Shown: positions 2,196-15,027 of the stretch, in pieces
Layout of the letters: each line of letters starts with the position of its first letter
Numbering within the stretch: position 1 is the stretch's first letter
From: Campylobacter sp.
GTDB lineage: Bacteria > Campylobacterota > Campylobacteria > Campylobacterales > Campylobacteraceae
Assembly (NCBI GenBank): GCA_024680445.1
Contig: JAILCJ010000089.1
Coordinates: 1 to 15,027 of the forward strand
DNA: 15,027 bases
Reading direction: 5' to 3'
Position numbers and translations under genes: made by a program
Notes under the pieces: generated by a model
The model's input: only the letters and a program-made list of their open reading frames with translations
Told to the model about the DNA's origin: nothing
The model's database searches: none

Positions 2196-2224
2196 TTGAC
2201 AAAATTATAAAAAATCACTATAAT
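2196..2224 (+). promoter_or_regulatory. Sigma-70 promoter for the tRNA pair
   Basis: TTGACA (2196-2201) and TATAAT (2219-2224) are both perfect consensus boxes separated by 17 bp, with the -10 ending 21 bases before the mature tRNA-Gln 5' end. A strong stable-RNA promoter is expected here. The 1986-2195 stretch upstream is very AT-rich and I see nothing else in it. Confidence 0.88.
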
Positions 2225-2245
2225 TACGACTTCACTTCAAAAGAT

Positions 2246-2320
2246 TGGGGTATCGCCAAGCGGTAAGGCAACTGGTTTTGGTCCAGTCATTCAGAGGTTC
2301 GAATCCTCTTACCCCATCCA
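2246..2320 (+). tRNA. tRNA-Gln (anticodon TTG)
   Basis: This folds as a full cloverleaf of 75 nt with encoded CCA. The acceptor stem is TGGGGTA paired to TACCCCA, the anticodon stem is ACTGG/CCAGT with loop TTTTGGT and anticodon TTG at 2278-2280, and the T arm is AGAGG-TTCGAAT-CCTCT. It is the first gene of a two-tRNA transcript; the next tRNA begins 25 nt later. Confidence 0.96.
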
Positions 2321-2345
2321 CTTACTAAAATCTCATACAACATGA

Positions 2346-2420
<75 letters not shown>

Positions 2421-2796
2421 CGATTTTATCGTTATCACCATAATCTATACATTGCTTTAAGTTTTCTATTAGAGTGAATTTAAGAGTAAGTTTAGAGTAA
2501 GTCCCTTTAAAATAAAAAGCAACATTTTTATATATTTTTTCTGTTTGAATTAGTGGTTTTTACTACCATTTGTTAGTGGTTGTTAAAGATATTCATAATG
2601 ATTTTTAGGGTAAAAGTCACTCTTTTTATGTCAGTTATAAGAATAAAGGGGGGGGCTTTGAGAACGCTTAAAAAATTATAAAGCTAAAAAGATATTTTAA
2701 ATAGTTAGGACAAAATGTGTTTTGTTTTAAATTTGAAAAACGCTTTTTATAAAGAGTGTTTATGTTTTATGATTTTAAAATAGACTATATCAAATT
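2421..2796. other. Non-coding 376-bp stretch with a G8 tract
   Basis: I find no supportable gene here. It lies between the 3' end of tRNA-Met and the modD stop. Contents are a run of eight G (2648-2655), a direct repeat TTAGTGGTT (2550-2558 and 2573-2581), a near-repeat AGAGTAAGT at about 2480-2500, and an AT-rich imperfect palindrome at 2739-2760. A tRNA 3' end followed by gene-free debris is a common remnant of past integration, but no integrase fragment or second att copy is recognisable. Confidence 0.6.
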
Positions 2797-3636
2797 TTAT
2801 AAAATTTCGATTTTTGCACTTATATCGGCAAGGCCTTGCGTGTAAGGTGCCGAGGTCGTTATGGCGTCTATGCCTGTGGCGGCATACTCTTTTGCATTTT
2901 TTGCATTAATTCCACCGCTTGCGATAATTTTGCATCGGCTATTTATCCTATCGCGTAAATTTACCGCCTCGCTTAAAAGTTCTAAACTAAATTTATCGCA
3001 CTGAATCATATCTACATCGGCTTTTAAAAGTTTTTTGAATTCGTCTAAATTTTCGCACTCTACGCCGATTTTTCGCTCTGGTGCTTTTGCTTTAAAAGTT
3101 GGAATTTGTGCTAAAAATTCATCATAATTTTCATAGGCTTTTATATGATTTTTAAAAAACAAAACGCTATCGCTTAAATTTAGCCTATGCACTCCGCCTC
3201 CGCCGTGCAAAACCGCATTTAGGCAAATTTTTTTAGCAAAAGGGAAACTTTTTCTGGTGCTTAGGATTTCGCATTTTTGATTTACGGATTTTGCTAAACT
3301 TTGCATTTTATGTGTATAAGTTGCGATTTGACAAGTGTATTCAAGCAGAATTTGACAAAGTTTCCAAGCCTTGTGTACATCATTGTAAGCTCCGTAAATT
3401 TTGACGATAGTATCATTTGCTTTGGCAAAATTTCTATCTTTTATCAAAATTTCTGCTTTGCAATTTAAAATTTTTGCTATTTTTGCAACTATATCTGCTC
3501 CGCTAACGCAAATTTCATCTCTTGAAAATATGCTTAAAACAGCGTTTTTATCGATATCTTGCAAAGAAGTCGTAAGGTCAAAATAAGGCAAATCTTCATT
3601 TATATAATTTAAAATTTCTGCTTCACTTATAAACAT
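2797..3636 (-). CDS. modD: ModD-like pyrophosphorylase (NadC/quinolinate phosphoribosyltransferase homologue)
   Basis: The 279-residue protein belongs to the type II phosphoribosyltransferase fold. The N-terminal domain starts DLPYFDLTT (about 15-23). The barrel core has STRKSFPFAKK (126-136), AVLHGGGGVHRLNLSDSVLFF (141-161) and FKNH (161-164), which match the ModD variant better than NadC: NadC has TRKTTPG, and here the Pro-Gly is replaced by PF. IASGGINAKN (238-247) forms the phosphate-binding end. ModD is named for its position in some molybdate transport operons; its reaction is not established. Here no mod genes are adjacent. Its ATG directly follows the TAA of the upstream symporter gene, with AAGGGA inside that gene's end as ribosome site, so the two are co-translated. 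An unusual NadC cannot be excluded. Confidence 0.82.
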   Translation of the reverse strand: MFISEAEILNYINEDLPYFDLTTSLQDIDKNAVLSIFSRDEICVSGADIVAKIAKILNCKAEILIKDRNFAKANDTIVKIYGAYNDVHKAWKLCQILLEYTCQIATYTHKMQSLAKSVNQKCEILSTRKSFPFAKKICLNAVLHGGGGVHRLNLSDSVLFFKNHIKAYENYDEFLAQIPTFKAKAPERKIGVECENLDEFKKLLKADVDMIQCDKFSLELLSEAVNLRDRINSRCKIIASGGINAKNAKEYAATGIDAITTSAPYTQGLADISAKIEIL

Positions 3637-5094
3637 TTAGTCCCTTTTCCAGCAGCTTGTATTTTTGATCTCTAATTTTTCTGGGTTAAATTCCGGATTT
3701 AGCCCAAATTTTCGCTGATTTTCATAGTCTTTTATGGCTTTTGATAAAACTTTTGAAAGCGAAACTATGGCAAAGATATTTATAGTAGCCATTGCTCCCA
3801 TTAGCACATCAGCCAAGTTCCAAGCCAACTGCAAATTCATCTGTGCACCCATAAAAACCATTAAAACAGCTAGAATTTTAAAACTTAGATTTATTATAGA
3901 ATTTTGGCTTAAAAATTTGATATTTGCTTGTGCATAGTAAAAATTTCCTATAAGAGAAGTTATCGCAAAAAGCACGACAGCAACGGTTGTAAAGTGCATG
4001 CCTATCTCTCCGTAATACTCCATCATCGCCGCTTGAACAAGTGGTAATGCAGTCAAAACTTCGCCATTTACCCCTAAGGTTTTTGTGGCATAAACTTGTG
4101 AGAAAAGCACCAAAAGTCCGGTTGCTATACAAATGCAAACATCTATAAAAACCGCCAAGGCTTGAACCAAACCCTGTTTGACTGGGTGGCTAGTGTGTGC
4201 GGCGGCGGCGGCATTTGGAGCCGAACCCATACCAGCTTCATTTGAAAAAAGCCCCCGTTTTATGCCAATAGCTATAACACTGCCTGCAAAACCCCCAAAA
4301 ATCGCCTTAAAATCAAAGGCACTTTCAAAAATCAACGACAAAACAGCTGGAATTTTTGAAAAATTTATGCTTATGGCTATGATAGCCAAACCAACATAAG
4401 TCAAAGCCATGAAAGGCACGACATAAGAGCTAACTTTACCGATGATTTGGCTCTTTGAGAAAAAAAGTATGCTAGCAAAAGCCATTAAAATAAGCCCTAT
4501 CGCAAATGGCATAGAGCTTTGAGCGAAGCTAACATCGGCAGAGTGCTGGTTATAATACACTTCAAACGCCGAAGTCATCGTATAACTTTGCAAACCATTA
4601 AAGCCAAAAGCATAGGTCAAAATAAGAATAAAAGCAAAAATTTTACCAAGACGAGGCATATTTAAACCATTTTTGATGTAATACGCTGGCCCGCCCTTAA
4701 AGCCGTTTTTGTCGTGGCTTTTGTATATTTGTGCCAAGGTGCTTTCTGCAAATGCCGATGCAGCGCCCAAAAACGCCATGGTCATCATCCAAAACAAAGC
4801 ACCCGGTCCACCAGCAACGATAGCCGTTGCTATGCCCGCGATATTGCCAATGCCGACCCTTGAAGCAGTTGAAATCATCAAAGCTTGAAAAGGCGTTAGT
4901 CTGTTTCTGTGATATCTATCGGCTTTTTCTAAAAGCACTTTTATGGCGTCAAATGCCAAGCGAAACTGCACAAATTTGGTTAAAAAGCTAAAATAAATTC
5001 CAGCGATTATAAGGATAGCAACCAAAAATGAGCCGTATAAAAAGTCGTTTGTAGAATTAAGAAGGCTGTTGAAAGTGTTTAAAAATTTATCCAT
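3637..5094 (-). CDS. alsT: AGCS-family amino acid (alanine/glycine):cation symporter
   Basis: The 485-residue inner-membrane protein has about ten or eleven hydrophobic helices and takes up small neutral amino acids with Na+ or H+. Signature segments are SRVGIGNIAGIATAI (78-92), the GGPGALFWM motif (95-103) and FKGGPAYYIKNGL (132-144). A second cluster, GIKRGLFSNEAGMGSAPNAAAAAHTSHP at about 278-305, is the other AGCS hallmark. Length is normal. An AAAGG ribosome site lies just before the ATG, and a perfect TATAAT is 26 bases upstream. It is the promoter-proximal gene of a two-gene unit with modD. The substrate cannot be fixed from sequence. Confidence 0.94.
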   Translation of the reverse strand: MDKFLNTFNSLLNSTNDFLYGSFLVAILIIAGIYFSFLTKFVQFRLAFDAIKVLLEKADRYHRNRLTPFQALMISTASRVGIGNIAGIATAIVAGGPGALFWMMTMAFLGAASAFAESTLAQIYKSHDKNGFKGGPAYYIKNGLNMPRLGKIFAFILILTYAFGFNGLQSYTMTSAFEVYYNQHSADVSFAQSSMPFAIGLILMAFASILFFSKSQIIGKVSSYVVPFMALTYVGLAIIAISINFSKIPAVLSLIFESAFDFKAIFGGFAGSVIAIGIKRGLFSNEAGMGSAPNAAAAAHTSHPVKQGLVQALAVFIDVCICIATGLLVLFSQVYATKTLGVNGEVLTALPLVQAAMMEYYGEIGMHFTTVAVVLFAITSLIGNFYYAQANIKFLSQNSIINLSFKILAVLMVFMGAQMNLQLAWNLADVLMGAMATINIFAIVSLSKVLSKAIKDYENQRKFGLNPEFNPEKLEIKNTSCWKRD

Positions 5095-5119
5095 TTTTAA
5101 CCTTTTTTTGTTTTTTGAA

Positions 5120-5125
5120 ATTATA
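5120..5125 (-). promoter_or_regulatory. -10 box upstream of alsT-modD
   Basis: The minus strand reads TATAAT here, 26 bases before the alsT ATG, embedded in an AT-rich tract without a recognisable -35. This is the usual look of a Campylobacter vegetative promoter. The rest of the 5095-5228 gap is AT-rich and featureless. Confidence 0.45.
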
Positions 5126-5228
5126 AATTTATTTAAATTAGATTTGGCTTTTAAAATGCTATTTTAAGCGATTTTATGATTTATCAAAGATGATTTTGCT
5201 TTTTTTGTTGGGATTTTTGTCTATTAAA

Positions 5229-6755
5229 CTAATCAAATTTGATGTCAAATTCTAACCTGATTCTCTTTTTTTTATTTGGAGAAATGGGCTGTTTTAAATT
5301 TTTAACATACTCTATCAAGGCATCAAATACCGAAATTTTCGTATTTTTTGCACTTAAAACACCGCTAAATTTATAGCCATCGCCACCTTTAAATGTAAAA
5401 TCATTTGTCCCAAAGGTGTAAACACGTTGTTTTTCTAGCAAAACATCGTTTATCTTGATATCGCTTATAAGGCCGTTTTTACCGTATTTATCGTAATGCA
5501 AGGTGTAGCTAATGCCATCTGAAACTTGCAAAAAGCCTCCGCTGCCAAGGTTATGGACTTGCGATAAAAGTTTAAGCAAATCATCTCCACGCATTTTAAC
5601 TATCATTACTTGATTTTTAAAGGGCAAAACTTTCATAATGTCGGCTTTTTTCACTTCGCCTTTATCGAAATTTTCTCTTACTCCGCCGCCGTTTGTTATG
5701 GCAAAATCCGTGTCTTTATCTATTTTTTTTGCCGCAAATTTAATAGCGTCAGCCACCAAATCGCCGTTTGGACTTTGCCCTTTTCTAGCCGCTTTTATAT
5801 CATCGCCAAAATCCGATGCCGCCGTAAAAATCACTTGATTTAAATCTTTTTGAAAATCTTGTTTTAATGGCTCGATGATGCCTTGTATCTGGCTATCTTT
5901 TGGATAAAGCTTATCATCTACCAAAATGCTCTCCCACTTAAAATCATGCACTTTTTTATCTTTTATTTGCATACGCGCTACGCCAAGATAAGCACCAAAG
6001 CATTTTGCGGTAACTATGGGCGTGTTATTTATGATTTTAGGGCTTGAAAAATATGAGTGTGAGTGTCCGTCTATGATCAAATCCACTCCATTTAGCGAAT
6101 TTGCTAAATCTATGCTAGTAAATTGATTTGCCTTGTCTTTTACATCGCCAAGGTGAGTTAAAGCGATGATTATATCCACGCCTTTTGCTTTTAGCTCGGC
6201 TATGGCGGTTTTGGCTGCGTCTAGTTCGTTTTGTATAAATATATCTTTTTCTAGCATGGCACTTTCTTTGCTCGTGCATGTTGTTAAGCCAAAAATGCCG
6301 ACCTTGAATTCGCCAAAATCCTTGATAATATAAGGCTTTGCTATAAATTTACCATTTTGCGTAACATTTGCACTAAGCCAAGAAAATTTTGAAAGTTTTA
6401 TTTGATCTTTTAAAAGGCTTGTGTTGTTATCAAATTCGTGATTGCCGATGGTTACGGCGTCATAACCCATGGCGTTATATGCCAAGATATCAGGTTTTGC
6501 GTGAAGGGCGTTTGAGAGTGCGCCGCCGGTATTTATATCCCCAGCGTCCAAGATCAATACATTTTTATGCCCTTGTCGTATTTGTTTTATCAAGCTAGCT
6601 CGTGTGCTAAGTCCGCCTATCATTAGGCTTGTGTTTGCATCGATTTTTTGTTTATTTGAAAGAACATGACCGTGTGAATCATTAGTATGTAGCACCAAAA
6701 GTTCGGCACCAAAACTTTGTAAACATAAAGCAATGGCAAAAATTATTTTTTTCAT
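5229..6755 (-). CDS. Secreted 5'-nucleotidase / 2',3'-cyclic nucleotide phosphodiesterase (UshA/CpdB-like)
   Basis: From the chosen start the protein has 508 residues. Residues 1-17 form a signal peptide (MKKIIFAIALCLQSFGA), so it should act in the periplasm. The metallophosphatase domain (about 18-235) carries the dimetal ligands: LHTNDSHGH (D26, H28), DAGD (70-73), GNHEFD (104-109), THLG (200-203) and DGHSH (229-233). The 5'-nucleotidase C-terminal domain (about 305-490) has NGGGVREN (355-362) and FGTNDFTFKGGDGYKF (448-463). The reading frame is open 30 codons further upstream (to 6845), but the start at 6755 has AAAGGA six bases ahead and places the signal peptide at the N-terminus. ATCAAATTTGAT forms its last codons (5232-5243). 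Substrate preference is not decidable. A possible operator lies upstream at 6872-6888. Confidence 0.9.
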   Translation of the reverse strand: MKKIIFAIALCLQSFGAELLVLHTNDSHGHVLSNKQKIDANTSLMIGGLSTRASLIKQIRQGHKNVLILDAGDINTGGALSNALHAKPDILAYNAMGYDAVTIGNHEFDNNTSLLKDQIKLSKFSWLSANVTQNGKFIAKPYIIKDFGEFKVGIFGLTTCTSKESAMLEKDIFIQNELDAAKTAIAELKAKGVDIIIALTHLGDVKDKANQFTSIDLANSLNGVDLIIDGHSHSYFSSPKIINNTPIVTAKCFGAYLGVARMQIKDKKVHDFKWESILVDDKLYPKDSQIQGIIEPLKQDFQKDLNQVIFTAASDFGDDIKAARKGQSPNGDLVADAIKFAAKKIDKDTDFAITNGGGVRENFDKGEVKKADIMKVLPFKNQVMIVKMRGDDLLKLLSQVHNLGSGGFLQVSDGISYTLHYDKYGKNGLISDIKINDVLLEKQRVYTFGTNDFTFKGGDGYKFSGVLSAKNTKISVFDALIEYVKNLKQPISPNKKKRIRLEFDIKFD

Positions 6756-6801
6756 TTTTATCCTTTTTTGCGTAAAAGATTTTTCATGTTTTGCGTCAGA
6801 A

Positions 6802-6810
6802 ATCATAGCA
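6802..6810 (-). promoter_or_regulatory. Extended -10 promoter candidate for the nucleotidase gene
   Basis: The minus strand reads TGC-TATGAT, an extended -10 element ending 47 bases before the 6755 start. No good -35 is visible. If used, the mRNA would begin inside the longer open frame and so supports the 6755 start. Confidence 0.35.
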
Positions 6811-6871
6811 TAAATTTGATTATTAAACTTTTGTAAATAAATCAAATTTGATAAAAATAAAAAAAATTATT

Positions 6872-6888
6872 TTGACAAAATATGTCAA
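6872..6888. promoter_or_regulatory. 17-bp inverted repeat, candidate WYL-regulator operator (copy 1)
   Basis: TTGACAAAATATGTCAA is a TTGACA-N5-TGTCAA dyad, identical in all 17 bases (spacer included) to the copy at 8053-8069. It lies 117 bases upstream of the nucleotidase start and 160 bases past the WYL gene stop. The remainder of the 6756-7047 gap has a copy of ATCAAATTTGAT (6841-6852) and a terminator-like hairpin. Confidence 0.6.
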
Positions 6889-7004
6889 ATTTTAAGGCAA
6901 AAATGTTATGAAAAAATGAATTCAAACACCAAAATACCATTAAAAATATATCCCTAAAAGGCTAAAATTTTATAAAATTTACTCTTTTAAATTACGCAAA
7001 AAGC

Positions 7005-7042
7005 CCAAAAAAATGTAGGCAAATTTGATGAGATTTTTTTGG
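7005..7042 (-). terminator. Possible terminator after the WYL regulator gene
   Basis: Ten-base perfect arms, CCAAAAAAAT and ATTTTTTTGG, flank an 18-base loop five bases past the stop codon at 7048. On the minus strand the stem is followed by GCTTTTTGCG. The stem is AT-rich, so strength is doubtful. Confidence 0.4.
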
Positions 7043-7047
7043 ATTTG

Positions 7048-8022
7048 CTATGATAATTTTTGCTGATTTTTTCTAGAAATGCCATGAGTTTTATCATAAA
7101 ATCTCTCGCTGATTTTTCTCATGATATCTACCAAATTTTGCGGTGCTATCACGTTTACATAAGGTATCCAAGACTTTATGATGGGTATGATTTCGTTTTG
7201 ACTTGTTACTTTAAAGCCAACCCTAACAAAGCCCGCTTCATCTTCGCTTATGATGTATTGGCTGGGGTGAAATTTTTTGAGTTTAAAATACTTTGCTTGG
7301 GCTTTTGGAAGTTCGATTATGACATCGATTAATTTGTTTTTATAATCAGGCAAAAATCTTGCCCACGGCGAAGTAAGTTTTTCGCAAAAGTCCAAAAATG
7401 TGTAGTTTTTATCAAATTTCTTACCGCTAAATTTGATATCGCTCATCATGGCTATTCGGCTAAGTATCATATTTTCGTTTTTACTCAAACTGGCTAGGTA
7501 AAAATTTTCGTTTATAAAGACGATTTTATGCGGATTTAGACAAAACGAAGTTATCCTATCTAAATTTTTATAAGTAAAAATGATTTGTTTTTGGGATTTT
7601 ATGGCTTGTTCTAGGAATTTAAATTTGTCTTTATTTGTAAAAATTTCTTCATAGGGTTTATGCACAAATACATAAGGACTATGCATTTGTGGGCTTAGCA
7701 AGGTGTTTTTTAGCCTTTCGTCTATGTCTTTATCCAAAGATAAATTATACTTTTTGCCAAAAGTTAAAATGTCTTTTAGCATGTAAATTTCGCTACTTTC
7801 TAGCACATTTTCAAGCACGGCTTTTTGGATCATGGCAAACTCGCCCTTTTTTGGACTTATCAAAATATCGCCAAAAATTTCAGCTATCAGCTCAAAGTCC
7901 CTTCTTATGCTACGTTCGCTGGTTTCATAATAACTAGCCAAATTTTTTATGCTTAGCACCCTGCCATTTTGCAAATCCCGAAGTATCTCTATCACTCTAT
8001 ATGTAGATGAAATTTTACTCAT
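7048..8022 (-). CDS. HTH/WYL-domain transcriptional regulator
   Basis: The 324-residue protein begins with a DeoR/HTH_11-type winged helix (about 5-62: TYRVIEILRDLQNGRVLSIKNLA, then ETSERSIRRDFELI as the recognition helix). The WYL domain is about 135-210, with FYLAS (174-178) at the position of the W-Y-L motif and several basic residues suited to ligand or nucleic-acid binding. A WCX-like C-terminal extension covers roughly 230-310. WYL proteins are ligand- or nucleic-acid-sensing regulators, often tied to DNA/RNA damage or phage defence. It is divergent from rtcB across an 84-bp gap that contains a dyad over the rtcB -35, so control of rtcB and autoregulation are likely. Its ribosome site is a modest AAGAG. 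The target is inferred. Confidence 0.87.
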   Translation of the reverse strand: MSKISSTYRVIEILRDLQNGRVLSIKNLASYYETSERSIRRDFELIAEIFGDILISPKKGEFAMIQKAVLENVLESSEIYMLKDILTFGKKYNLSLDKDIDERLKNTLLSPQMHSPYVFVHKPYEEIFTNKDKFKFLEQAIKSQKQIIFTYKNLDRITSFCLNPHKIVFINENFYLASLSKNENMILSRIAMMSDIKFSGKKFDKNYTFLDFCEKLTSPWARFLPDYKNKLIDVIIELPKAQAKYFKLKKFHPSQYIISEDEAGFVRVGFKVTSQNEIIPIIKSWIPYVNVIAPQNLVDIMRKISERFYDKTHGISRKNQQKLS

Positions 8023-8052
8023 TTTTTCTCTTTTTTGCTTAATTTTTTAAAA

Positions 8053-8069
8053 TTGACAAAATATGTCAA
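8053..8069. promoter_or_regulatory. 17-bp inverted repeat, candidate WYL-regulator operator (copy 2)
   Basis: TTGACAAAATATGTCAA again, in the divergent WYL/rtcB gap. Its left arm is itself a consensus -35 (TTGACA) for rtcB, so a bound protein would block or remodel the promoter. The right arm gives TTGACA on the minus strand, facing the WYL gene. Confidence 0.65.
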
Positions 8070-8080
8070 AAATTTATTTT
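8053..8080 (+). promoter_or_regulatory. Candidate rtcB promoter overlapping the operator
   Basis: TTGACA (8053-8058) is followed after 16 bp by TATTTT (8075-8080), 26 bases before the rtcB ATG at 8107. AAAGGA at 8095-8100 is the ribosome site. The -10 is imperfect. Confidence 0.45.
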
Positions 8081-8106
8081 AGTATTTTAGCACGAAAGGA
8101 TAAAAA

Positions 8107-9303
8107 ATGAAACATATTAAAATTTACGCTGAAATTTTAGAGCAAGAGGCTTTGGAGCAATTTCAAAAAGCCATGGAGCTAAAATGCAATGTAGCTGGGG
8201 CTTTGATGAGCGATGCTCACACAGGATATACCTTGCCAATAGGTGCTGTGGTGAAATCATACCGCACTATATTTCCTGCTTATGTGGGCTATGATATAGG
8301 TTGTGGTATGTGTGCTATCAAATTTGATATTACGGCAAATGGGCTTGATCTAGAAAAAATCAAAAACGATATTTTAGCAAGCATACCAGTTGGCATAAAA
8401 AAGCAAGAAAAAGCACAAATTTTTGCCGATATGCCTGCTTGCACCGACATGGCAAAAGAGATTTTTGATAAGCTTGGAAAATATCAGCTAGGCACATTAG
8501 GTGGCGGAAATCATTTCTTAGAACTTGGTGTTGGAAGTGATAAAAAAGTCTGGGCGGTGGTACACTCTGGTTCACGTGGTTTTGGGAAAAAAATAGCCGA
8601 ACATTATATGAAAGAGGCATTTTTACAAAGCATAAATTTAGATGAGTTAAAAAGCGAATTTGAGGCTAAAAATGTGGAATTTAAAAAGCACAATCCAGAA
8701 AAATTTGCCCTTGCTTTACAAAAATTTATGCAAAAATCGCAAGAAAAACTAGCAAAAACTAGCATTGAAGGGCATTTTGGACTAGATATCGCTTCGCCTT
8801 TGGGTAAAAATTATATCATGGATATGAATTGTGCCTTGGAATTTGCCTTGCAAAACCGAAAAAATATGATAGCTAAAATCAAAACCGCCCTTGGCGTGGC
8901 TGATGAGTTAATGTTTATAAACAAAAATCACAATCACGCCATAATAAATGGAGATTTTATTATCCACCGCAAGGGTGCAACCAGTGCCGAACTTGGCGAA
9001 TACGGCGTGATACCGGGCAATATGCGTGATGGTAGCTTTATAGTGCGTGGGTTGGGTAATGCTAATTCGCTTCAAAGTTCATCGCATGGAGCTGGTAGAG
9101 TAATGTCAAGAAATGTGGCTAAAAAAAGCATAAGTTTAGATGAGTTAAACGCCGATATGGTGGGTATCATCACCAATCACACAGAGCAAATGTGTGACGA
9201 GGCACCAAGGGCGTATAAAAATATTTTTGAAGTCATGAAAGCCCAAAGCGAACTTGTCGAAATAATCGAACACATCAAGCCTATTTTAAATATCAAAGGT
9301 TAG
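8107..9303 (+). CDS. rtcB: RtcB RNA-splicing/repair ligase
   Basis: The 398-residue enzyme joins RNA 2',3'-cyclic phosphate (or 3'-phosphate) ends to 5'-OH ends using GTP and Mn2+. All landmarks are present: DAHTGYTLPIGAV (36-48), YDIGCGM (62-68) with the metal ligands D63 and C66, GTLGGGNHFLEL (129-140), HSGSRGFG (153-160), NCALEFALQNR (241-251), NHNHA (274-278), HRKGATSA (287-294), IPGNMRDGSFIVRG (302-315) and SSSHGAGR (324-331), whose H327 matches the guanylylated histidine. Length fits the shorter bacterial RtcB type. No rtcA or archease gene is adjacent. The ribosome site AAAGGA is six bases before the ATG. Pairing with a divergent WYL regulator, rather than the sigma-54 activator RtcR, suggests induction through the dyad at 8053-8069. 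Confidence 0.96.
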   Translation: MKHIKIYAEILEQEALEQFQKAMELKCNVAGALMSDAHTGYTLPIGAVVKSYRTIFPAYVGYDIGCGMCAIKFDITANGLDLEKIKNDILASIPVGIKKQEKAQIFADMPACTDMAKEIFDKLGKYQLGTLGGGNHFLELGVGSDKKVWAVVHSGSRGFGKKIAEHYMKEAFLQSINLDELKSEFEAKNVEFKKHNPEKFALALQKFMQKSQEKLAKTSIEGHFGLDIASPLGKNYIMDMNCALEFALQNRKNMIAKIKTALGVADELMFINKNHNHAIINGDFIIHRKGATSAELGEYGVIPGNMRDGSFIVRGLGNANSLQSSSHGAGRVMSRNVAKKSISLDELNADMVGIITNHTEQMCDEAPRAYKNIFEVMKAQSELVEIIEHIKPILNIKG

Positions 9304-9375
9304 TCATGGCTGATTAAATTTGATTTGTGCTTTTTAAAAAAAATTGTTAGGTAAAAAATCTAAAAAATTTAATAA

Positions 9376-9407
9376 AAGACAAGTCAAAAACAACTTTGAC
9401 TTGTCTT
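9376..9407 (-). terminator. Intrinsic terminator closing the right-hand minus-strand operon
   Basis: A perfect 13-bp stem (AAGACAAGTCAAA / TTTGACTTGTCTT) with a 6-base loop lies 20 bases past the last minus-strand stop (9427). Read on the minus strand it is followed by TTTTATTAAATTTTTT; on the plus strand no T-run follows, so it mainly serves the minus operon, though it may also stop rtcB transcripts that arrive from the other side. Confidence 0.75.
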
Positions 9408-9426
9408 CGACGCTTGAAAATATAAA

Positions 9427-9705
9427 CTAAAATTTCTCATCAGTTTTTTGCACTTTTAGTCTTTTGGCTTTTCGGGCGTTGTTGATGTATCTTTGGATAA
9501 AGCCGTTGTTATACAGCCCATAATGATAAATCCCAAAGCCCACAAGTGCGATGCCAGAAAGCGTATGCAAGCGTCTAAAAGTGCGGTCTTTGAGATTTAA
9601 CGCTGTAACAGCAGCCAAGCCCAAACTAACTCCCACGCCGACTTTCGCAAACTCTCTGTGTGCGTTAAGATCTAAGAGTTTGCCTTGTATTTGTGTAGTT
9701 TTCAC
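9427..9705 (-). CDS. Small membrane protein, last gene of the ferrosome-like operon
   Basis: The 92-residue protein starts at GTG with AAAGGA seven bases ahead. It has two predicted membrane helices (about 20-37, FAKVGVGVSLGLAAVTAL, and 48-65) joined by a short basic loop KDRTFRR, and a Lys/Arg-rich C-terminal tail (76-87). His47 and His61 lie 14 residues apart along the second helix, a spacing seen in heme-binding helices of b-type cytochromes, but no second ligand-bearing helix is obvious. I do not recognise the family. It is 136 bp downstream of the ATPase gene on the same strand and just before the terminator, so it is placed in the same operon by position. Confidence 0.8.
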   Translation of the reverse strand: MKTTQIQGKLLDLNAHREFAKVGVGVSLGLAAVTALNLKDRTFRRLHTLSGIALVGFGIYHYGLYNNGFIQRYINNARKAKRLKVQKTDEKF

Positions 9706-9725
9706 GCTTTTTCCTTTGTGTTAAT

Positions 9726-9836
9726 AACGCAAAATGCGTTCAAAAGCTTTAATCAAATTTGCTATAAATTTTCATCAAATTTAGTTCAAATTTGTATCAA
9801 ATTTAGAGCAAATTCTTATAAATTCAAGCCAAATTT
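9726..9836. repeat. Short hairpin and TCAAATTT words at 11-bp spacing
   Basis: The gap between the ATPase gene and the 92-residue gene has a hairpin AACGCA-AAA-TGCGTT (9726-9740), then TCAAATTT or near copies starting at 9753, 9775, 9786, 9797, 9808 and about 9829, that is at 11- or 22-bp steps (one DNA turn). No ORF is present. Confidence 0.7.
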
Positions 9837-9841
9837 GAACA

Positions 9842-11932
9842 TTATTTGTCTTCAAATTTGACACCTTTCATCGAATTTAACAAAAGCCAAATGGTCGTGC
9901 CATTGTGCAAAACAGCCGTTGCTATCGGATTTAGCAGCCCAAAAGTAGCCGCACCAAGTATGGCTGAATTTACGCCGACCGTGATTTTGAAATTCGAATC
10001 TATCAAACGCATGGTTTTTACGCTTAGTCCCTTTATCATTGCGATGCCCATGATATCGTCTTTTAGCAGACTTACATCCGCACTAGCCTTGGCTATATCG
10101 GCGCCTTTGTGCATGCTTATGCCAACATTTGCCTTGCTAAGGCTTGGAGCGTCGTTTATGCCGTCCCCCACAAAAGCGACATTTTTGCCACTTTTTTTAA
10201 GCTCGGCGATAATGTTTGCCTTATCCGTCGGCAAGCAGTTTGCATAAACCTTATCTATGCCCAGCTCTTTGGCGGTTTCGTCCGCTTTGCTTTGGATATC
10301 GCCGGTGAGCATAACCAGCTCTTTTACGCCGGATTTTCGCAAGGATTCTAGCATGGCCTTGGCGTTTGGACGCATTTCGTCTTTCATGGCGATGATACCG
10401 GCTAGTTTTTTGTCATAGGCGATATAAAGCAAGGTAAGCCCACGTTTTAGGGCGTCAGCGATGATTTTTTCCTTGCCTTTGAAGTCGATTTTTTCATCTT
10501 CTTCGATAAAGTGTCGTGAGCCTATGATAAGGACTTTTTTATCCACCGTGGTTTTTACGCCGTGAGCCACGATAAATTCGACCTCGTCGTGGTGAATATG
10601 CTTAAATCCTTGCTCTTTTGCCGCATCGACTATCGCTTCGGCGACCGGGTGAAAATAATGCTCTTCGGCACTGGCGGTGAGATTTAAAAGGTCGTTTTTG
10701 CTGAAATTTTCATCAAAAGAATAAATTTCTTCGACTTTTAAATGCCCATTTGTTAGCGTGCCGGTTTTGTCAAAAACAAAGGTATCGGCGTTTGCGAGAG
10801 CCTCGATAGCCTTGGCACCTTTTATCAAAATTCCGTTTCTGCCGGCTTTTGAAATGCTTGATTTAAAAGCGACAGGGGTGGCAAGTTTGAGAGCACACGA
10901 ATAATCGGCTTGAAGCACGCTGGCTACGCTGTTTGCGTCTCGTTTAAACACATACGAAGCCGCCGCTAGTCCGAGAGTAACTGGCACGAGTTTATCGGCA
11001 AGTTTTGCGGCTTTTAGTCCGATGTTTGATTTTTCGTTCAAAGAGCTTTGGATGTATTCTTTGATACGTGCTGTTGCGGTGTCGTCGCCAACATTTTCAG
11101 CCCAAATTTTGATCTGACCTTCTTCGACTATGGTTCCGCTAATGACGCGATCGCCTCTGCTTTTTCGCACCGGCTCTGCTTCGCCTGTCATGGAGACTTG
11201 ATTTACACTAGCTTCACCAGCGACTATGTAGCCGTCTATGCCTATGTTTTCGCCAGCACTCACGACGACTATATCGCCTTTTTTGAGATCGGCGGTTTTG
11301 GTTTTTATAAGCTCTTTTTTGCCGTTTTTGATATGCTCGACCCAGACTTCTTCTATGCTTGGTTTGGCGAGTTCTTTGATGAGATCGTCACTGCGATAGG
11401 CGGTGCTTTCTTCCATGTATTCGCCCAAACTTAGCATAAAATTCGTGCCATTTGCCGCTAGATAATCTCCCCTTGCAAGGCTCACGCCAAGGGCTAGGGA
11501 TTCGAGCACTTTTGAAGTCAGCCCGTCGTTTTTTAGCTCTTTTACGCCTTGAATTAGAGGTTTGGCAGCGGCTGCAACGCTTATGGCAGCTTTTATCCTC
11601 GTATCGCTCACAAAAGGCGTGATAGCAAGGGCAGCGGTGGCTTTATAAATTTCAGCCTTGCTCGCTGTCGTGGCGTTTTTGGCTTTTTTAGGGATTTCAA
11701 GCCCACTTACGAAGTCCAAAATGCCTTGCAAATCATCGTTATACTCGATGATAACGCTTTTTGCGTAGATATTTACACGTGCGTTTTTGACATTGCTTAG
11801 TTCAGAAATACTCGCTTCGACAAAGCTTATATCGCTTTCGTCGCAAAGTTGTGCGACCCTAAGGCGGACGCGATTTTTGCTTTGGCTGACGATTTTAACT
11901 TTATTTGTTTGCATCGATCTCGGCTTTAACAT
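9842..11932 (-). CDS. fezB: P1B-type metal ATPase, FezB-like (ferrosome iron transporter)
   Basis: The 696-residue protein has the P-type ATPase core: actuator TGEAEP (249-254), phosphorylation site DKTGTLTNG (388-396), nucleotide-domain HP (428-429), TGD (543-545) and GDGINDAP (589-596). Membrane helices occur near 96-125, 140-170, 312-328, 336-358 and 647-687. The transport helix has SCA (345-347) where classical metal pumps have CPx, which as I recall is the P1B-6 class; that class includes FezB, the iron pump of ferrosomes. The N-terminus (1-85) looks like an HMA2 fold with an Arg-rich strand KNRVRLRV (19-26) and no CxxC. The first ATG overlaps the previous gene by 32 bases; Met7 (11914) is an equally plausible start. 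ATPase identity is certain; iron/ferrosome specificity is inferred from motif and neighbours. Confidence 0.88.
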   Translation of the reverse strand: MLKPRSMQTNKVKIVSQSKNRVRLRVAQLCDESDISFVEASISELSNVKNARVNIYAKSVIIEYNDDLQGILDFVSGLEIPKKAKNATTASKAEIYKATAALAITPFVSDTRIKAAISVAAAAKPLIQGVKELKNDGLTSKVLESLALGVSLARGDYLAANGTNFMLSLGEYMEESTAYRSDDLIKELAKPSIEEVWVEHIKNGKKELIKTKTADLKKGDIVVVSAGENIGIDGYIVAGEASVNQVSMTGEAEPVRKSRGDRVISGTIVEEGQIKIWAENVGDDTATARIKEYIQSSLNEKSNIGLKAAKLADKLVPVTLGLAAASYVFKRDANSVASVLQADYSCALKLATPVAFKSSISKAGRNGILIKGAKAIEALANADTFVFDKTGTLTNGHLKVEEIYSFDENFSKNDLLNLTASAEEHYFHPVAEAIVDAAKEQGFKHIHHDEVEFIVAHGVKTTVDKKVLIIGSRHFIEEDEKIDFKGKEKIIADALKRGLTLLYIAYDKKLAGIIAMKDEMRPNAKAMLESLRKSGVKELVMLTGDIQSKADETAKELGIDKVYANCLPTDKANIIAELKKSGKNVAFVGDGINDAPSLSKANVGISMHKGADIAKASADVSLLKDDIMGIAMIKGLSVKTMRLIDSNFKITVGVNSAILGAATFGLLNPIATAVLHNGTTIWLLLNSMKGVKFEDK

Positions 11933-12509
11933 CTTCGAAACGTTCTTTTAGCTCTTCGATGCCGGCGTTGATGAGCGAACCACCTTTTATGATAGCTTTA
12001 AAAAGGTATTCTTGGGTTTTTGGATTGCTAAGGATATAGGCTGCGATACCGCCTATAACGAGCCCTCTTAGCAAGCCGGCCGTGTTAAATCCTTCTGGTA
12101 AAAACGGCAAATGCAATCCATCGTTCGTGCCGTATGGAGCGTTTGCTTGATTCATGCCATACTGGGCGTTTGCTGGATTTGTGCCGTATGGAGCGTTTGC
12201 TTGATTTGTGCCGTATGGAGCGTTTGCTTGGTTCATGCCATACTGGGCGTTTGCGAAATTTGGCGTGCCATTAGACGCAAATGGGGCATTTGGAGCAAAA
12301 AACGGAGCGTTTTGGACGCCAAAAGGATTTGCGTGTTGGGGATCGACACCCATGCCAAAAGGATTTAAGTGTTGTGGATCGACGCCGTTTTGGACTTGAT
12401 TCACATTTGTGATGTATGGATTTTGCGTATGATTTTGCGCGTCTTTTGATACGCCCGTATCCACCGGACAATAATAGTTTTTATCTATGTTTATGTATGG
12501 ATTTTCCAT
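11901..12509 (-). CDS. Asn/Ala/Pro-Tyr-Gly repeat protein with C-terminal membrane helix
   Basis: The 202-residue protein has a long low-complexity, probably disordered N-terminus. Two copies of GVDPQHxNPFG (about 42-64) are followed by Pro/Phe-rich sequence, then five 9-residue units of the type NQANAPYGT (84-128). Next come a glycine-zipper membrane helix (about 144-160, GLLRGLVIGGIAAYIL) and an amphipathic charged helix IEELKERFEDVKAEI (184-198). AAGGAAA precedes the ATG. It overlaps the start of the ATPase gene, so the two are tightly linked. I do not recognise a family by name; the C-terminal TM plus charged helix resembles small membrane proteins of ferrosome operons and YtxH-like proteins. 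A scaffold role on the organelle membrane is a guess. Confidence 0.82.
   Translation of the reverse strand: MENPYINIDKNYYCPVDTGVSKDAQNHTQNPYITNVNQVQNGVDPQHLNPFGMGVDPQHANPFGVQNAPFFAPNAPFASNGTPNFANAQYGMNQANAPYGTNQANAPYGTNPANAQYGMNQANAPYGTNDGLHLPFLPEGFNTAGLLRGLVIGGIAAYILSNPKTQEYLFKAIIKGGSLINAGIEELKERFEDVKAEIDANK
12126..12260 (-). repeat. Five tandem 27-bp repeats within a CDS
   Basis: Five consecutive 27-bp units (135 bp) encode NFANAQYGM, NQANAPYGT, NQANAPYGT, NPANAQYGM and NQANAPYGT. The middle copies are nearly identical at DNA level, so copy number could change by slippage without breaking the frame. Confidence 0.9.
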
Positions 12510-12608
12510 GTTTTTTCCTTTAATGTAAATTTGCTTTTAAATCGCCTTTAAAAAATAGCGAATAAAACACAAACAAAACCGCTAAATGCGAGTTTTGCAA
12601 ACTTTGGC

Positions 12609-12645
12609 AAGGCAAATTTTTAATCAAATTTGCAAATTTTGCCTT
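12609..12645. other. Inverted repeat between the 93- and 202-residue genes
   Basis: AAGGCAAA (12609-12616) and TTTGCCTT (12638-12645) can form an 8-bp stem around an AT-rich loop containing TCAAATTTG. No T-run follows on the minus strand, so it is more likely an mRNA processing or stability hairpin inside the operon than a terminator. The rest of the 157-bp gap is plain AT-rich sequence. Confidence 0.35.
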
Positions 12646-12666
12646 AATTAACGCAAATTTATGCGA

Positions 12667-12948
12667 CTAGGCTTTGAATTTATCGACTAACAAAACTCCG
12701 CCCACGCCCAAAGCTATGGTGGTCGAAGCGTCCAAATAATGTCCGTTTGCTATGCAATTTGATGCGTGTATGGCTGTGTATGCAGTGATACCGCCCAAAA
12801 CACTGGCTTTTAAGGCCTTTTTACCAAGTTTTGGCAAGTCGTCCTTGCAGTCTTTTGCATTTAGCAAAACAGAACCGATACCAGCGATGATAGCACCGCT
12901 TAAAAAGTGGTCAGCCGGTCTTCTTGTGATAGATAATAAGTTTGTCAT
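12667..12948 (-). CDS. Small two-helix membrane protein of the ferrosome-like operon
   Basis: The 93-residue product has hydrophobic helices at about 15-29 (FLSGAIIAGIGSVLL) and 48-60 and a third short one at 76-88 (IALGVGGVLLV), with Gly-x-x-x-Gly style spacing. A polar loop DCKDDLPKLGKKALK (32-46) separates the first two. Cys33 and Cys64 are the only cysteines. The ribosome site AAAGGAT is well placed. The family is not recognised by name. Its position inside the cluster and its Gly-rich helices, shared with its neighbours, suggest a structural part of the compartment membrane. Confidence 0.82.
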   Translation of the reverse strand: MTNLLSITRRPADHFLSGAIIAGIGSVLLNAKDCKDDLPKLGKKALKASVLGGITAYTAIHASNCIANGHYLDASTTIALGVGGVLLVDKFKA

Positions 12949-12959
12949 TTTTCATCCTT

Positions 12960-13472
12960 TTAATAAATTGTAACTACTTTGAGTTTTTGGCTAAAAAAGC
13001 GTGAATTTTCAAAGCCAAAAAAAATCTTAGAAATTTCAGCCCAAAAATGCGAAAAATTTTCTGTAAAAATTCTAAAATTTGCAAAAAATTTACTCACCAA
13101 ATTTGAAAAATCTCCAAATTTGATGAGAGTAAATTTATAAGCTAAATTTGAAAGAATTCCAAATTTGATAAGAATAAATTTATATTCCAAATTTGAAAGA
13201 AATTTATTTATCAAATTTGCAAAATTCCTAAATTTAACCAGCATAAATTTACACATCAAATTTGCAAAATCTCCAAATTTGATGAGAGCAAATTTACATG
13301 CCAAATTTGCAAGAAATTTTCTTATCAAATTTGAAAAATCTCTAAATTTGATGAGCGAAAATTTACATGCCAAAAACCTTAGATTTTGCAACTTTGTTTT
13401 TTGCAAAATATCTAAGCATTTGCCTTGCAAATCGGCACATAAAATGTCACAAAATTCACAAAAACTTTTCAT
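12960..13472 (-). CDS. Doubtful ORF made of AAATTT repeats (170 residues)
   Basis: The frame is open for 170 codons and reads as repeats of the form LxxKFxLIKFGDFxN (15 residues) alternating with a 23-residue version ending LIxKFLxN, in the order 23-15-23-15-23 (about 34-132). The composition (Phe, Lys, Leu, Asn, Ile) is exactly what the DNA word AAATTTG gives, and the same stretch is also largely open on the other strand. There is no good ribosome site before the ATG. It may be a by-product of the repeat array or a real low-complexity protein; its position in line with the operon keeps it in the list. No function can be assigned. Confidence 0.3.
   Translation of the reverse strand: MKSFCEFCDILCADLQGKCLDILQKTKLQNLRFLACKFSLIKFRDFSNLIRKFLANLACKFALIKFGDFANLMCKFMLVKFRNFANLINKFLSNLEYKFILIKFGILSNLAYKFTLIKFGDFSNLVSKFFANFRIFTENFSHFWAEISKIFFGFENSRFFSQKLKVVTIY
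13098..13364. repeat. Higher-order AAATTT array (45 + 69 = 114-bp unit)
   Basis: AAATTT begins at 13099, 13116, 13131, 13144, 13161, 13176, 13189, 13200, 13213, 13230, 13245, 13258, 13275, 13290, 13303, 13314, 13327, 13344 and 13359. The steps follow 17-15-13 (45 bp) alternating with 17-15-13-11-13 (69 bp), so the full unit is 114 bp and appears about two and a half times. The flanks of each AAATTT differ in a fixed order (TCTCC before, TTGATGAGAG after, and so on), showing true duplication of a compound unit. It fills most of the 544-bp space between the 131- and 93-residue genes. Confidence 0.88.
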
Positions 13473-13492
13473 TTTTTAGCCCTAAATTCCAA

Positions 13493-13888
13493 CTAATTAG
13501 CCCCTTGATCGCCCGAAACTTCGCTTTTTACTTGTGCTTGCGTAGTCGTGCGTGGCTTTCTTGTGCTTGTCTTGCTTTGAGCACTTTTAGTTCTTGTTGT
13601 GCTTTTTTTGGCAGTGCTTTTCGCACTTGTGCTGGTTTTGGCAGCCTTGGTAGTGTCTGCTTTTTTACCTCGCGTTTTTGTGCTTGACTTTTTATCGCCG
13701 CCTAGAAGTTCTTTGCCTTTTTTTATCCCCTCATCGGCGATTTTTTTGCCTTTTTTTAGACCTTCATCGGCAATTTTTTTGCCCTTTTGCAAGCCGTCTT
13801 TTGCGATTTCTACGATTTCGCCCCTGTTTTTGTAGGCAACAACGCCCAAAGCACCTAGTGCTACACCTGCTAAAAATGGTAATGCCAT
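13493..13888 (-). CDS. Membrane-anchored protein with 11-residue repeats and histone-like basic tail
   Basis: From the second ATG the protein has 131 residues. A glycine-zipper membrane helix (MALPFLAGVALGALGVVAY, 1-19) is followed by three 11-residue repeats of the type ADEGLKKGKKI (29-61), a period typical of amphipathic 11/3 helices that lie on membranes. The tail (65-131) is rich in Lys, Thr, Ser and Ala, like histone H1. An ATG at 13903 overlaps the upstream TGA, but AAAGGA sits six bases before the 13888 ATG and the product then starts at the membrane helix, so I prefer it. It is YtxH-like in layout. The tail could bind polyanions such as phosphate mineral, polyphosphate or nucleic acid; this is inference. 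Confidence 0.83.
   Translation of the reverse strand: MALPFLAGVALGALGVVAYKNRGEIVEIAKDGLQKGKKIADEGLKKGKKIADEGIKKGKELLGGDKKSSTKTRGKKADTTKAAKTSTSAKSTAKKSTTRTKSAQSKTSTRKPRTTTQAQVKSEVSGDQGAN
13706..13804 (-). repeat. Three tandem 33-bp repeats within a CDS
   Basis: Three consecutive 33-bp units encode AKDGLQKGKKI, ADEGLKKGKKI and ADEGIKKGKEL. They are in frame, so unit gain or loss would only lengthen or shorten the amphipathic helix. Confidence 0.88.
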
Positions 13889-13899
13889 CTTAGATCCTT

Positions 13900-14574
13900 T
13901 CATTTGGAATTTTCTTTGTTGTTAGCTTCGTCATCTTCGCTGTCTTGTAAATTTTTACCAAGCACCGAGGACGCCAAAGCACCTATAGCTAAACCACCAA
14001 AAAACGGAAAATTCGGATTTGCGAGCAGAGTATTTAACTCAGCTGGATTTGATTTTCCGCTTAAAATATCACTTAGTTTTTGGCTCATTTCATTGAAATT
14101 TTGCTGATAATTGTTTAGCAAATTTTCATAATTCATAAAATTTTGCGTAGAATTTTTATCATTATTTTGCGAATTATTTTGCGTAAATTCTAAACGCAAA
14201 AGCTCCTTCAAGCTCACGATGTATTCGTTATTTGAAGTCGCCCAAAGTCTAAAAAAAACATCTTTTAGCTCCTCATCATCGCAGTTTTGACAAAACAAAT
14301 CATAGTTTTTGTTTAGAGCGATTTCATAATTTAATGCAACTATGATGGCCTCAAAAACATTGTCGGCGTTTTGTGTAGGCGGGATATTTGCTAGCAAATT
14401 CTCATCAAATTTGATCTTTTTTGCGGTGGCAAAATTTTCTAACAAACTCAAAGCTTTGTTGCGAATCTGTGCGATTTGCTCAAAAACCACGCCAAATTTT
14501 TTTAGCTCATCATAAAGCTTTTCGCCACTTTTTTCATTTATATATGCTAGGCTTAAAAGTTCTTGTGTTTTCAT
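13900..14574 (-). CDS. Degenerate ferritin-like (DUF2202-type) protein with C-terminal membrane helix
   Basis: The 224-residue protein reads like a four-helix ferritin-like domain: LLSLAYINEKSGEKLYDELKK (6-26), VFEQIAQIRNKALSLLENF (30-48), YEIALNKNYDLF (83-94) and LWATSNNEYIVSLKELL (110-126). I align these with DUF2202 patterns, in which helix 2 normally ends EQxH and helix 4 has RNH. Here those iron-ligand positions are IRNK and NNE, so the diiron site seems lost. An Asn/Gln-rich linker (131-165) leads to a glycine-zipper helix FPFFGGLAIGALASSVLG (189-206) and an acidic tail. The ATG overlaps the upstream TGA by four bases. The fold is inferred by eye; an unrelated helical protein is possible. 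Confidence 0.8.
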   Translation of the reverse strand: MKTQELLSLAYINEKSGEKLYDELKKFGVVFEQIAQIRNKALSLLENFATAKKIKFDENLLANIPPTQNADNVFEAIIVALNYEIALNKNYDLFCQNCDDEELKDVFFRLWATSNNEYIVSLKELLRLEFTQNNSQNNDKNSTQNFMNYENLLNNYQQNFNEMSQKLSDILSGKSNPAELNTLLANPNFPFFGGLAIGALASSVLGKNLQDSEDDEANNKENSK

Positions 14575-14885
14575 GCTATCTGCTCTGCTATATCGTTTAT
14601 TTTGTCACTTATGGCTTGTAAATTTCTGCCATTTAGCAAATCCTCCCAAAGCTCTTGTGCGAAGACTTGCGGATCATAAAAAACTGTGAGCGAACCTATG
14701 ATTTTGTTGAATTTGACTTCTTTTATGCCGTTAATTTTGGCGATAATAGAATCAATTTTGCTAAGCTCATTTGCGTCAAAATCTTGGGTTATTTTTGCGC
14801 TCACCCTGACTCTCAATCTACCCGGCGTATGTGAAATAGGGGTGAAAAAACTCGCGATTTTTGCTAATTTCTCAACACTAATCAT
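14571..14885 (-). CDS. Stand-alone HMA2-like domain protein, first gene of the ferrosome-like operon
   Basis: The 104-residue protein has the pattern of an HMA2-type ferredoxin-like fold: an Arg-rich first strand TPGRLRVRV (20-28), helix 40-52, strands IKEVKFNKIIGSLTVFYDP (54-72), then helices 73-84 and 88-103. It lacks the CxxC of copper/zinc HMA domains. The same layout occurs in the N-terminus of the ATPase (KNRVRLRV, then VKNARVNIYAKSVIIEYND), so the two domains are homologous. Proteins with a Gly-Arg-x-Arg type strand accompany FezB in described ferrosome clusters, as I recall. AAAGGAG lies just ahead of the ATG. It leads the operon and is followed by a four-base overlap with the next gene. 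Confidence 0.85.
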   Translation of the reverse strand: MISVEKLAKIASFFTPISHTPGRLRVRVSAKITQDFDANELSKIDSIIAKINGIKEVKFNKIIGSLTVFYDPQVFAQELWEDLLNGRNLQAISDKINDIAEQIA

Positions 14886-14914
14886 AACTTCTCCTTTCGT
14901 TTTGGCGTATTATC

Positions 14915-14920
14915 TGACTA
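14915..14920 (-). promoter_or_regulatory. Possible -10 box of the ferrosome-like operon
   Basis: The minus strand reads GATAAT about 30 bases before the first ATG, with TTACGA 16 bp upstream as a poor -35. The 142 bases from 14886 to the window end are non-coding and should hold the operon promoter. Confidence 0.3.
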
Positions 14921-14948
14921 AGTAGCTTAATCGTAACTTAATACTTTT

Positions 14949-14963
14949 TGCGTATCGTTATCA
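14949..14963 (-). promoter_or_regulatory. Weak Fur-box-like sequence upstream of the ferrosome-like operon
   Basis: The minus strand reads TGATAACGATACGCA, which agrees with the 7-1-7 Fur pattern TGATAAT-N-ATTATCA at 10 of the 14 arm positions; the left half is strong and the right half weak. It lies 64 bases before the first ATG. Iron control of such operons by Fur is reported in other bacteria. Confidence 0.3.
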
Positions 14964-15027
14964 GATATATTTTGAAAAAACTTACTGGTTTTAAAACTAA
15001 TTATCAAAAAATAGCAAAATTTAGCTG

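Follow-up and report, generated by a model that had tools for sequence, protein, structure and literature searches.

Organization of the operon

In this study, we analyzed a stretch of 15,027 nucleotides from Campylobacter sp. (GenBank assembly GCA_024680445.1, contig JAILCJ010000089.1, positions 1 to 15,027 of the forward strand; hereafter the window). Positions 9427-14885 carry, on the minus strand, an operon of seven conserved genes, some of them overlapping, which encode a FezB-type P1B ATPase and six small proteins and which we read as a probable fez (ferrosome) gene cluster. The features are listed below (aa, amino acids; ORF, open reading frame; TM4, transmembrane helix 4; E, expectation value). 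Slot proteins are the proteins in the place of c3 in loci of other phyla.

14571-14885, minus strand: HMA2-domain protein, 104 aa, first operon gene (Pfam HMA_2, E 3.2e-7)
13900-14574, minus strand: c3, ferritin-like tail-anchored protein, 224 aa
14167-14574, minus strand: c3 residues 1-136, ferritin-like four-helix bundle (predicted fold, ligand reading)
13915-14088, minus strand: c3 residues 163-220, C-terminal helix and Gly-rich membrane anchor (profile comparison with slot proteins)
13493-13903, minus strand: c2, 136 aa, a single Gly-rich membrane helix with a tail rich in Lys, Thr and Ser (alignment A6)
12667-12948, minus strand: c1a, Gly-rich membrane protein, 93 aa (relatives in loci)
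11901-12509, minus strand: c1b, YtxH-like, 202 aa, Gly-rich membrane helix and ELKERFEDVKAE tail (relatives in loci)
9842-11932, minus strand: FezB-type P1B ATPase, 696 aa, YSCALKL in TM4, N-terminal HMA2-like domain (TIGR01525, tree, motif count)
9427-9705, minus strand: FezC-like two-helix protein, 92 aa, invariant His47 and His61 (weak DUF4405, 39-row alignment)
9375-9408, minus strand: terminator-like hairpin of 15 pairs and a T-rich tail, at the operon end
14944-14962, minus strand: upstream element GATAACGATACGCAAAAAG, similar in six relatives
13075-13367, no strand: AT-rich repeat array within the operon, spanning most of the doubtful ORF 12960-13472

Neighboring genes overlap by 4 bases at 14571/14574 and 13900/13903, and by up to 32 bases at 11901/11932, assuming a start at the first ATG. 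A preliminary description of this DNA had listed seven credible minus-strand genes with overlaps of 4 to about 30 bases, and all seven genes lie where it places them. It had also doubted an eighth ORF (12960-13472), rightly so, because the AT-rich repeat array underlies most of this ORF and the cluster analysis found no relatives of it; it was rejected as a gene. The hairpin described at the operon end was found as well, but its stem counts 15 pairs instead of 13. The separate HMA2 protein was confirmed just above the Pfam cut-off (30.8 bits versus 30), and the ferritin-like protein with a membrane tail was recovered by its predicted fold and C-terminal anchor module. Apart from HMA_2 and DUF4405, no credible Pfam name emerged for the small operon proteins when the window ORFs were searched. 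The contig extends a further 142 bases upstream of the HMA2 gene, and our view of the operon's upstream side stops there.

The ATPase of the operon

The ATPase matches TIGR01525 (E 9e-146) as well as TIGR01512. Its TM4 reads YSCALKL where CPx pumps carry CPx, and its Arg-rich N-terminus has a weak HMA_2 match (E 9e-4, short of the curated threshold); both the replacement of CPx by SCA and the Arg-rich, HMA2-like N-terminus had been noticed beforehand. The 58 FezB-labelled rows that we collected show YSCAL (47), YSCAI (5), SCAVK (3), YACPV (1) or FACAV (1), one having no readable motif, and all 16 second ATPases found in some of the loci read CPC. In an 84-row tree, made by a quick method on groups pre-labelled by profile, with some long branches, the L073 fragment left out and no validated FezB among the rows, FezB (58), second ATPases (16) and CPx pumps (10) separate with support values of 100, 100 and 99 in the Shimodaira-Hasegawa-like approximate likelihood ratio test (SH-aLRT). 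The FezB group includes the pumps of two Solidesulfovibrio species, an Azospirillum, a Vibrio and a Cereibacter. A match from Clostridium beijerinckii was rejected as FezB, since it is a CPx pump.

The preliminary description had expected that the ATPase would stay apart from copper, zinc and cobalt pumps in a tree, which is what its place in the FezB clade indicates. An ordinary Cu/Zn/Co resistance operon, composed of a CPx-type P1B ATPase and a chaperone, is consequently hard to credit: the ATPase lacks CPx and falls in a clade of its own (SH-aLRT 100), and the genome of the window encodes two other P1B pumps, both CPC-bearing and grouped with the CPx pumps. Such an operon would agree with the matches to the general profiles TIGR01525 and TIGR01512, and also with the Cu and Cd pumps that are the best solved relatives by sequence; the latter are expected for any P1B ATPase. 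The sequence comparison thus supports placing the window ATPase with the FezB-like pumps, whose type we take to be P1B-6, and not with the CPx pumps.

Several loci encode additional pumps. The second ATPase with CPC in TM4 lies 5' of the HMA2 gene in L037, L042, L043, L044, L050, L059, L194 and L195, and likewise in eight Desulfovibrionaceae loci (L167, L168, L178-L183), and forms its own clade. In two Desulfovibrionaceae loci a second, divergent FezB-like gene stands beside the first (L181:9877-11967, L182:4089-6182).

Conservation of the gene set

The FezB ATPase is present in all 48 genomes of the window's genus, in 91/153 genomes of its family (E up to 1e-90) and in 135/397 genomes of the phylum (E up to 1e-100). 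The gene order recurs in 28 loci of the same family and in 12 Campylobacterota loci of other families, with some losses, fusions and insertions, so that the arrangement is above chance. Both sets (29 family loci including the window, and 12 others) were chosen to spread over genera. Profile matches in the 29 family loci amount to 29 for HMA2, 25 for c3, 29 for c2, 27 for c1a, 26 for c1b and 26 for the FezC-like protein. In the 12 other loci, the only outside test because the profiles derive from the family loci, the corresponding numbers are 12, 10, 10, 9, 12 and 8. The gene-neighborhood survey across Campylobacterota that the preliminary description had put forward thus finds the small genes together with FezB inside and outside the family. 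In a few loci c1a and c1b form one fused ORF.

A FUR-family gene lies inside the examined stretch in 12/29 family loci and 7/12 others (19/41); an example from among these neighbors exceeds the Pfam FUR cut-off, and the NCBIfam Fur subfamily cut-offs are not reached. The whole operon is also found on two Arcobacter plasmids (L071, L074; CP129951, CP134847), and in L074 FezB is split over two ORFs and followed downstream by TonB-dependent receptors and a Tn3 transposase.

The last gene is best described as encoding a FezC-like relative of DUF4405, which the alignment supports. K21, H47, G51 and H61 are invariant in 39/39 aligned rows (alignment A2, without L052, L058, L074, L179, L191, L194 and L195), those of Solidesulfovibrio and Azospirillum included, and 19 of the 39 members match DUF4405 with an E-value of 0.01 or lower. 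The window protein itself reaches E 0.0039, below the cut-off. The invariant His residues are 14 residues apart, a spacing familiar from the helices of cytochrome b. As to the Gly-rich membrane proteins (alignments A4, A5 and A6 are chosen subsets), c1a has relatives outside the phylum in Azospirillum (E 1e-6), Vibrio (1e-4) and Solidesulfovibrio (3e-3 and 1e-2), and c1b is conserved in Azospirillum, Vibrio, Cereibacter and Solidesulfovibrio. One Azospirillum protein (L068:4707-5186) combines FezC-like helices (own profile, E 2e-3) with an HMA_2 domain.

A ferritin-like bundle on a shared anchor

Residues 1-136 of c3 are predicted to adopt a ferritin-like four-helix fold. At the ligand positions the window protein carries E14, R38, A41, E84 and Y118, three of the five ligands being lost. 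The full set (E, E, H, E, H) occurs in 13/36 aligned c3 rows, is lost in 9/9 rows of the window's genus and is kept as a five-residue metal site in 10 c3 proteins sampled from other Campylobacterota families; the structure alignment A3 covers 33 of the 36 rows, L071, L045 and L052 being left out. Matches to DUF2202 with E-values of 0.01 or lower are found for 11/36 c3 rows, the window c3 not among them, and an Arcobacter plasmid c3 is annotated as DUF2202, yet lacks a Pfam match at E up to 0.001. While c3 is similar in fold to the DUF2202/ferritin-like superfamily, it differs by its fusion to a Fez anchor module and, in the window copy, by the loss of three of five ligands. An assignment of c3 as EncB-family cargo (E 0.008, far below cut-off) was superseded by the predicted ferritin-like fold.

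The anchor has counterparts outside the phylum. When 3301 ORFs from Campylobacterota loci were searched with a profile built from ten foreign slot proteins, the matches at E < 0.01 were limited to c3 (20), c1b (31) and c1a (2), and five column-shuffled versions of the profile gave a best match no better than E 0.04. All 22 c3 domain matches begin at module positions 3-13, with 20 extending to position 50 or beyond; those of c1b begin at 29-42. Conversely, a profile of the c3 anchor detected 8/10 foreign slot proteins with E-values of at most 1.3e-5, and gave 0.017 for Vibrio and 0.71 for L183. The profile results in both directions therefore indicate a common anchor, which bears a disordered-looking N-terminus in the foreign slot protein and a ferritin-like bundle in Campylobacterota. 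The N-terminal half of the module was discarded as sole proof of orthology, being weak (6/36 c3 at E < 1, with one HMA2-labelled ORF scoring better).

The ferritin-like half of c3 has no match among 2232 ORFs of 13 fez-like loci from two other phyla (best E 8.8), namely ten Desulfovibrionaceae and three Pseudomonadota plasmid loci, and a bundle profile made solely from family rows detects 10/12 loci of other Campylobacterota families, each with an E-value of at most 4.2e-22. Among the loci examined, the ferritin-like domain is an operon part confined to Campylobacterota. The earlier suggestion of lineage-specific accessory proteins thus holds for this domain, but not for HMA2, c1a, c1b and the FezC-like protein, which occur in fez-like clusters of other phyla.

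FezB and ferritin across genomes

No PF00210 member was found in the genome of the window (98.98% complete), while the control search was positive in 14/14 genomes. For the survey of the phylum, a PF00210 E-value alone was dropped as a ferritin count, because a Dps accounts for the strong match of one genome (G076) and certain ferritins have scores in the range of Dps. Instead, a ferritin-only profile (A7, eight ferritins, no Dps) was run on the same draw of 397 genomes as FezB. For ten sampled PF00210 members the NCBIfam names (non-heme ferritin, Dps, bacterioferritin) agree with our prior sorting, one of them reaching the curated cut-off.

FezB and ferritin occur together in 11 genomes, FezB only in 124, ferritin only in 141 and neither in 121. 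In the window's family (f1, 120 genomes) FezB only was scored 73 times, ferritin only 46 times, both never and neither once. The second family (f2, 100 genomes) gave 19, 76, 0 and 5, respectively, a count that may miss genomes without ferritin and Dps among 12 others, the FezB and ferritin lists being complete; that these 12 hold no further f1 genomes was read from the kinship order. We read f1 as Campylobacteraceae and f2 as Helicobacteraceae. Five genera are mixed, with FezB/ferritin counts of 10/2 (g2, plus 1 with neither), 10/1 (g3), 1/43 (g4), 11/4 (g13, plus 2 with neither) and 4/1 (g34). Their 90 genomes contain no co-occurrence against 6.8 expected, and zero was reached in 0/100,000 permutations of ferritin within genera, a procedure that ignores the remaining kinship among congeneric species and so falls short of a complete phylogenetic test. 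What is excluded is ferritin proper rather than the superfamily as a whole, since 128/135 FezB genomes (counted by eye) do encode a PF00210 member, in most cases a Dps judging by score. One FezB-positive genome (G151) has a bacterioferritin-like protein; the survey scored ferritin and left bacterioferritin out.

These results bear on two other explanations. The first is a metal efflux platform, in which Fe(II) or another metal leaves the cell through the pump and the Gly-rich proteins gather the pump into clusters in the plasma membrane, similar to PacL and CtpC, with no organelle formed. Precedents exist, as the available part of PMC9374683 describes membrane platforms of PacL proteins with a P-ATPase (CtpC, mycobacteria) and DUF6110 proteins that accompany P1B6 pumps. 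However, the eight window ORFs gave no DUF1490 or DUF6110 (PacL-type) match in Pfam at E up to 1, a search that distant relatives could escape; FezB stands apart from the CPx pumps, and the operon includes a FezC-like and a ferritin-like part. The HN motif, which PMC9374683 names for P1B6 pumps and which the window FezB carries, was dropped as a P1B-6 mark and has no discriminating value here, because 4 of 10 CPx pumps shown also have it; in addition, the search pattern missed some of its forms. Since the exclusion of ferritin across genomes argues for storage rather than export, we consider the efflux platform unlikely.

The second explanation, a membrane-docked ferritin-like protein store with c3 as the store and FezB only as its feeder, would do without a ferrosome. 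The fold of c3, the 13/36 rows with an intact ligand set and the mutual exclusion of operon and ferritin in two families are in line with such a function. On the other hand, the ligand set is gone throughout the window's genus (9/9 rows), where ferritin is absent too, c3 is missing from 6/41 Campylobacterota loci that retain FezB, and none of the 13 fez-like loci from other phyla has the ferritin-like domain. We regard this reading as improbable, even more so than export.

Comparison with known systems

Congeners and plasmid clusters served as stand-ins for validated Fez proteins. In Solidesulfovibrio alcoholivorans DSM 5433 and S. aerotolerans the genes follow one another in a single run (atp2-HMA2-slot-c1a-c1b-FezC-FezB), with FezC-like matches at E 8e-20 and 3e-18. 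Similar to the window, HMA2, an anchored slot protein, c1a (weak), c1b, a FezC-like protein and FezB are thus found together, yet the slot protein has a Pro/Gly-rich N-terminus instead of the ferritin-like bundle, the FezC-like gene lies 5' and not 3' of FezB, and the run contains a second ATPase and a FeoA-domain gene as extras. The latter was observed behind FezB in S. alcoholivorans, the one Solidesulfovibrio genome tested for it. Solidesulfovibrio magneticus RS-1 (Desulfovibrio magneticus), the type organism for ferrosomes in the literature, belongs to the same genus.

A six-gene fez operon is known from Shewanella putrefaciens. The accessible part of PMC12016538 likewise gives six fez genes, RPA2333-2338, for Rhodopseudomonas palustris CGA009. 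The Vibrio and Cereibacter plasmid clusters, which we guess to be of this operon type, share HMA2, slot protein, c1a-like protein (in Cereibacter by eye), c1b and FezB with the window, but no FezC-like ORF was called in these loci. In the case of Clostridioides difficile, the published description considered here names three genes, fezXAB. With regard to FezC, the available parts of PMC10979944 and PMC11334425 state that the protein of Desulfurispirillum indicum binds heme b and that of D. magneticus is DUF4405-like.

Repeats and upstream elements

The palindrome CAAATTTG occurs in 33 copies in the window versus 1.75 expected, with 0/200 shuffles as high. Its arrays at 9-303, 9754-9860 and 13075-13367 are largely intergenic, and one divides the operon between c2 and c1a. 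In the window as well as in L033, L034, L035, L037, L055 and L056, a GATAACGATAYGCAAAAA-like element is situated 52 to 86 bases 5' of the HMA2 gene; it could possibly be an operator of the operon. In L036, L037, L039 and L055, FezB and the FezC-like gene are separated by a sodium:alanine symporter gene, which instead stands behind the FezC-like gene in L035; often it precedes a quinolinate-phosphoribosyltransferase-like gene. The window homologues of this pair are adjacent at 3637-5094 and 2797-3636, away from the operon.

Discussion

Based on gene order, homology, motifs, a predicted fold and genomic exclusion, we propose that the operon is a fez gene cluster and assign this reading, with the roles outlined here, a probability of roughly 80%. 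Published work on relatives, as far as the available text goes, describes fez genes as making membrane-bound iron stores, with FezC as a cytochrome. The metal, the direction of transport, the vesicle and the roles of individual proteins make up the conjectural part of our model. FezB would pump iron, probably Fe(II), across the membrane of a vesicle derived from the inner membrane and into its interior. The small HMA2 protein may bind metal, hand it over or contact FezB, and so help loading. The FezC-like protein, judged by its sequence, may be a b-type cytochrome of two helices, carrying electrons through the vesicle membrane and setting the redox state of the iron. The Gly-rich proteins c1a, c1b and c2 and the c3 anchor would pack into the membrane and shape it, and c2 may use its Lys-rich tail to bind phosphate polymers. 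c3 would dock its ferritin-like bundle at the membrane. Where the five-residue site is intact, the bundle may oxidise or nucleate iron; given the degenerate site in the window's genus, it is there more likely a structural or docking part. Iron storage by the operon would then substitute for ferritin in these genomes.

The preliminary description had proposed that the operon builds a ferrosome compartment. Its fez type is indicated by the FezB clade, the FezC-like protein, the synteny with Solidesulfovibrio and the exclusion of ferritin in two families, while the making of granules is still a matter of inference.

Several observations weigh against our interpretation. The likeness to known systems is drawn from stand-ins, as the validated Fez proteins (D. 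magneticus RS-1, R. palustris, S. putrefaciens, C. difficile) lie outside the sequence comparison, and we infer the granule, the iron and the regulation from genes alone. The DUF4405 and HMA_2 matches of the single window proteins are weak or at the cut-off, the c1a match is weak in Solidesulfovibrio, and the Cereibacter FezB has YACPV as its TM4 motif. The exclusion is incomplete beyond f1 and f2, since 11/135 FezB genomes, all from other families, also carry ferritin, and 121/397 genomes have neither. A further genome, G072 (outside the 397-genome draw), has FezB together with a non-heme-ferritin-like ORF nearly identical to the ferritin of G073, and is perhaps a mixed assembly. As to regulation, the window's genome has no close relative of the neighboring Fur-family regulator (best 32% identity). 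In a Fur-box scan with a Fur consensus and mononucleotide shuffles, 14 of 19 positions were reached by 6/35 upstream regions versus 3.7% of shuffles, and the window's upstream element scores only 12 of 19 as a Fur-like site.

Ferrosomes have been shown by experiment in few bacteria. A 2025 review, in its available part, asks whether other pathogens or commensals possess them (PMC12574912). In the open literature searched, of which some sources were accessible in part, we found no link between ferrosomes and Campylobacter or Helicobacter; the founding papers fall outside that scope, and Grant 2022 may list Campylobacterota. The same literature contained nothing on DUF2202. The kind of system is already known; what looks new is the slot protein with its ferritin-like domain, together with the exclusion of ferritin.

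In a broader scenario, to which we give slightly less than even odds, ferrosomes and ferritin are interchangeable, mutually exclusive and several-times-swapped iron stores in the families read as Campylobacteraceae and Helicobacteraceae. The phylum's machinery would have absorbed a ferritin-like domain onto its anchor, and in the window's lineage this domain would since have lost its metal site and now serve as a scaffold, iron being stored by the organelle alone. The replacement of ferritin by FezB concerns two families that, on this reading, are home to many colonists of humans and animals, and the question of organelle versus ferritin becomes testable there in paired lineages. With a ferritin-like domain on a Fez anchor, c3 unites two strategies of iron storage within a single protein.

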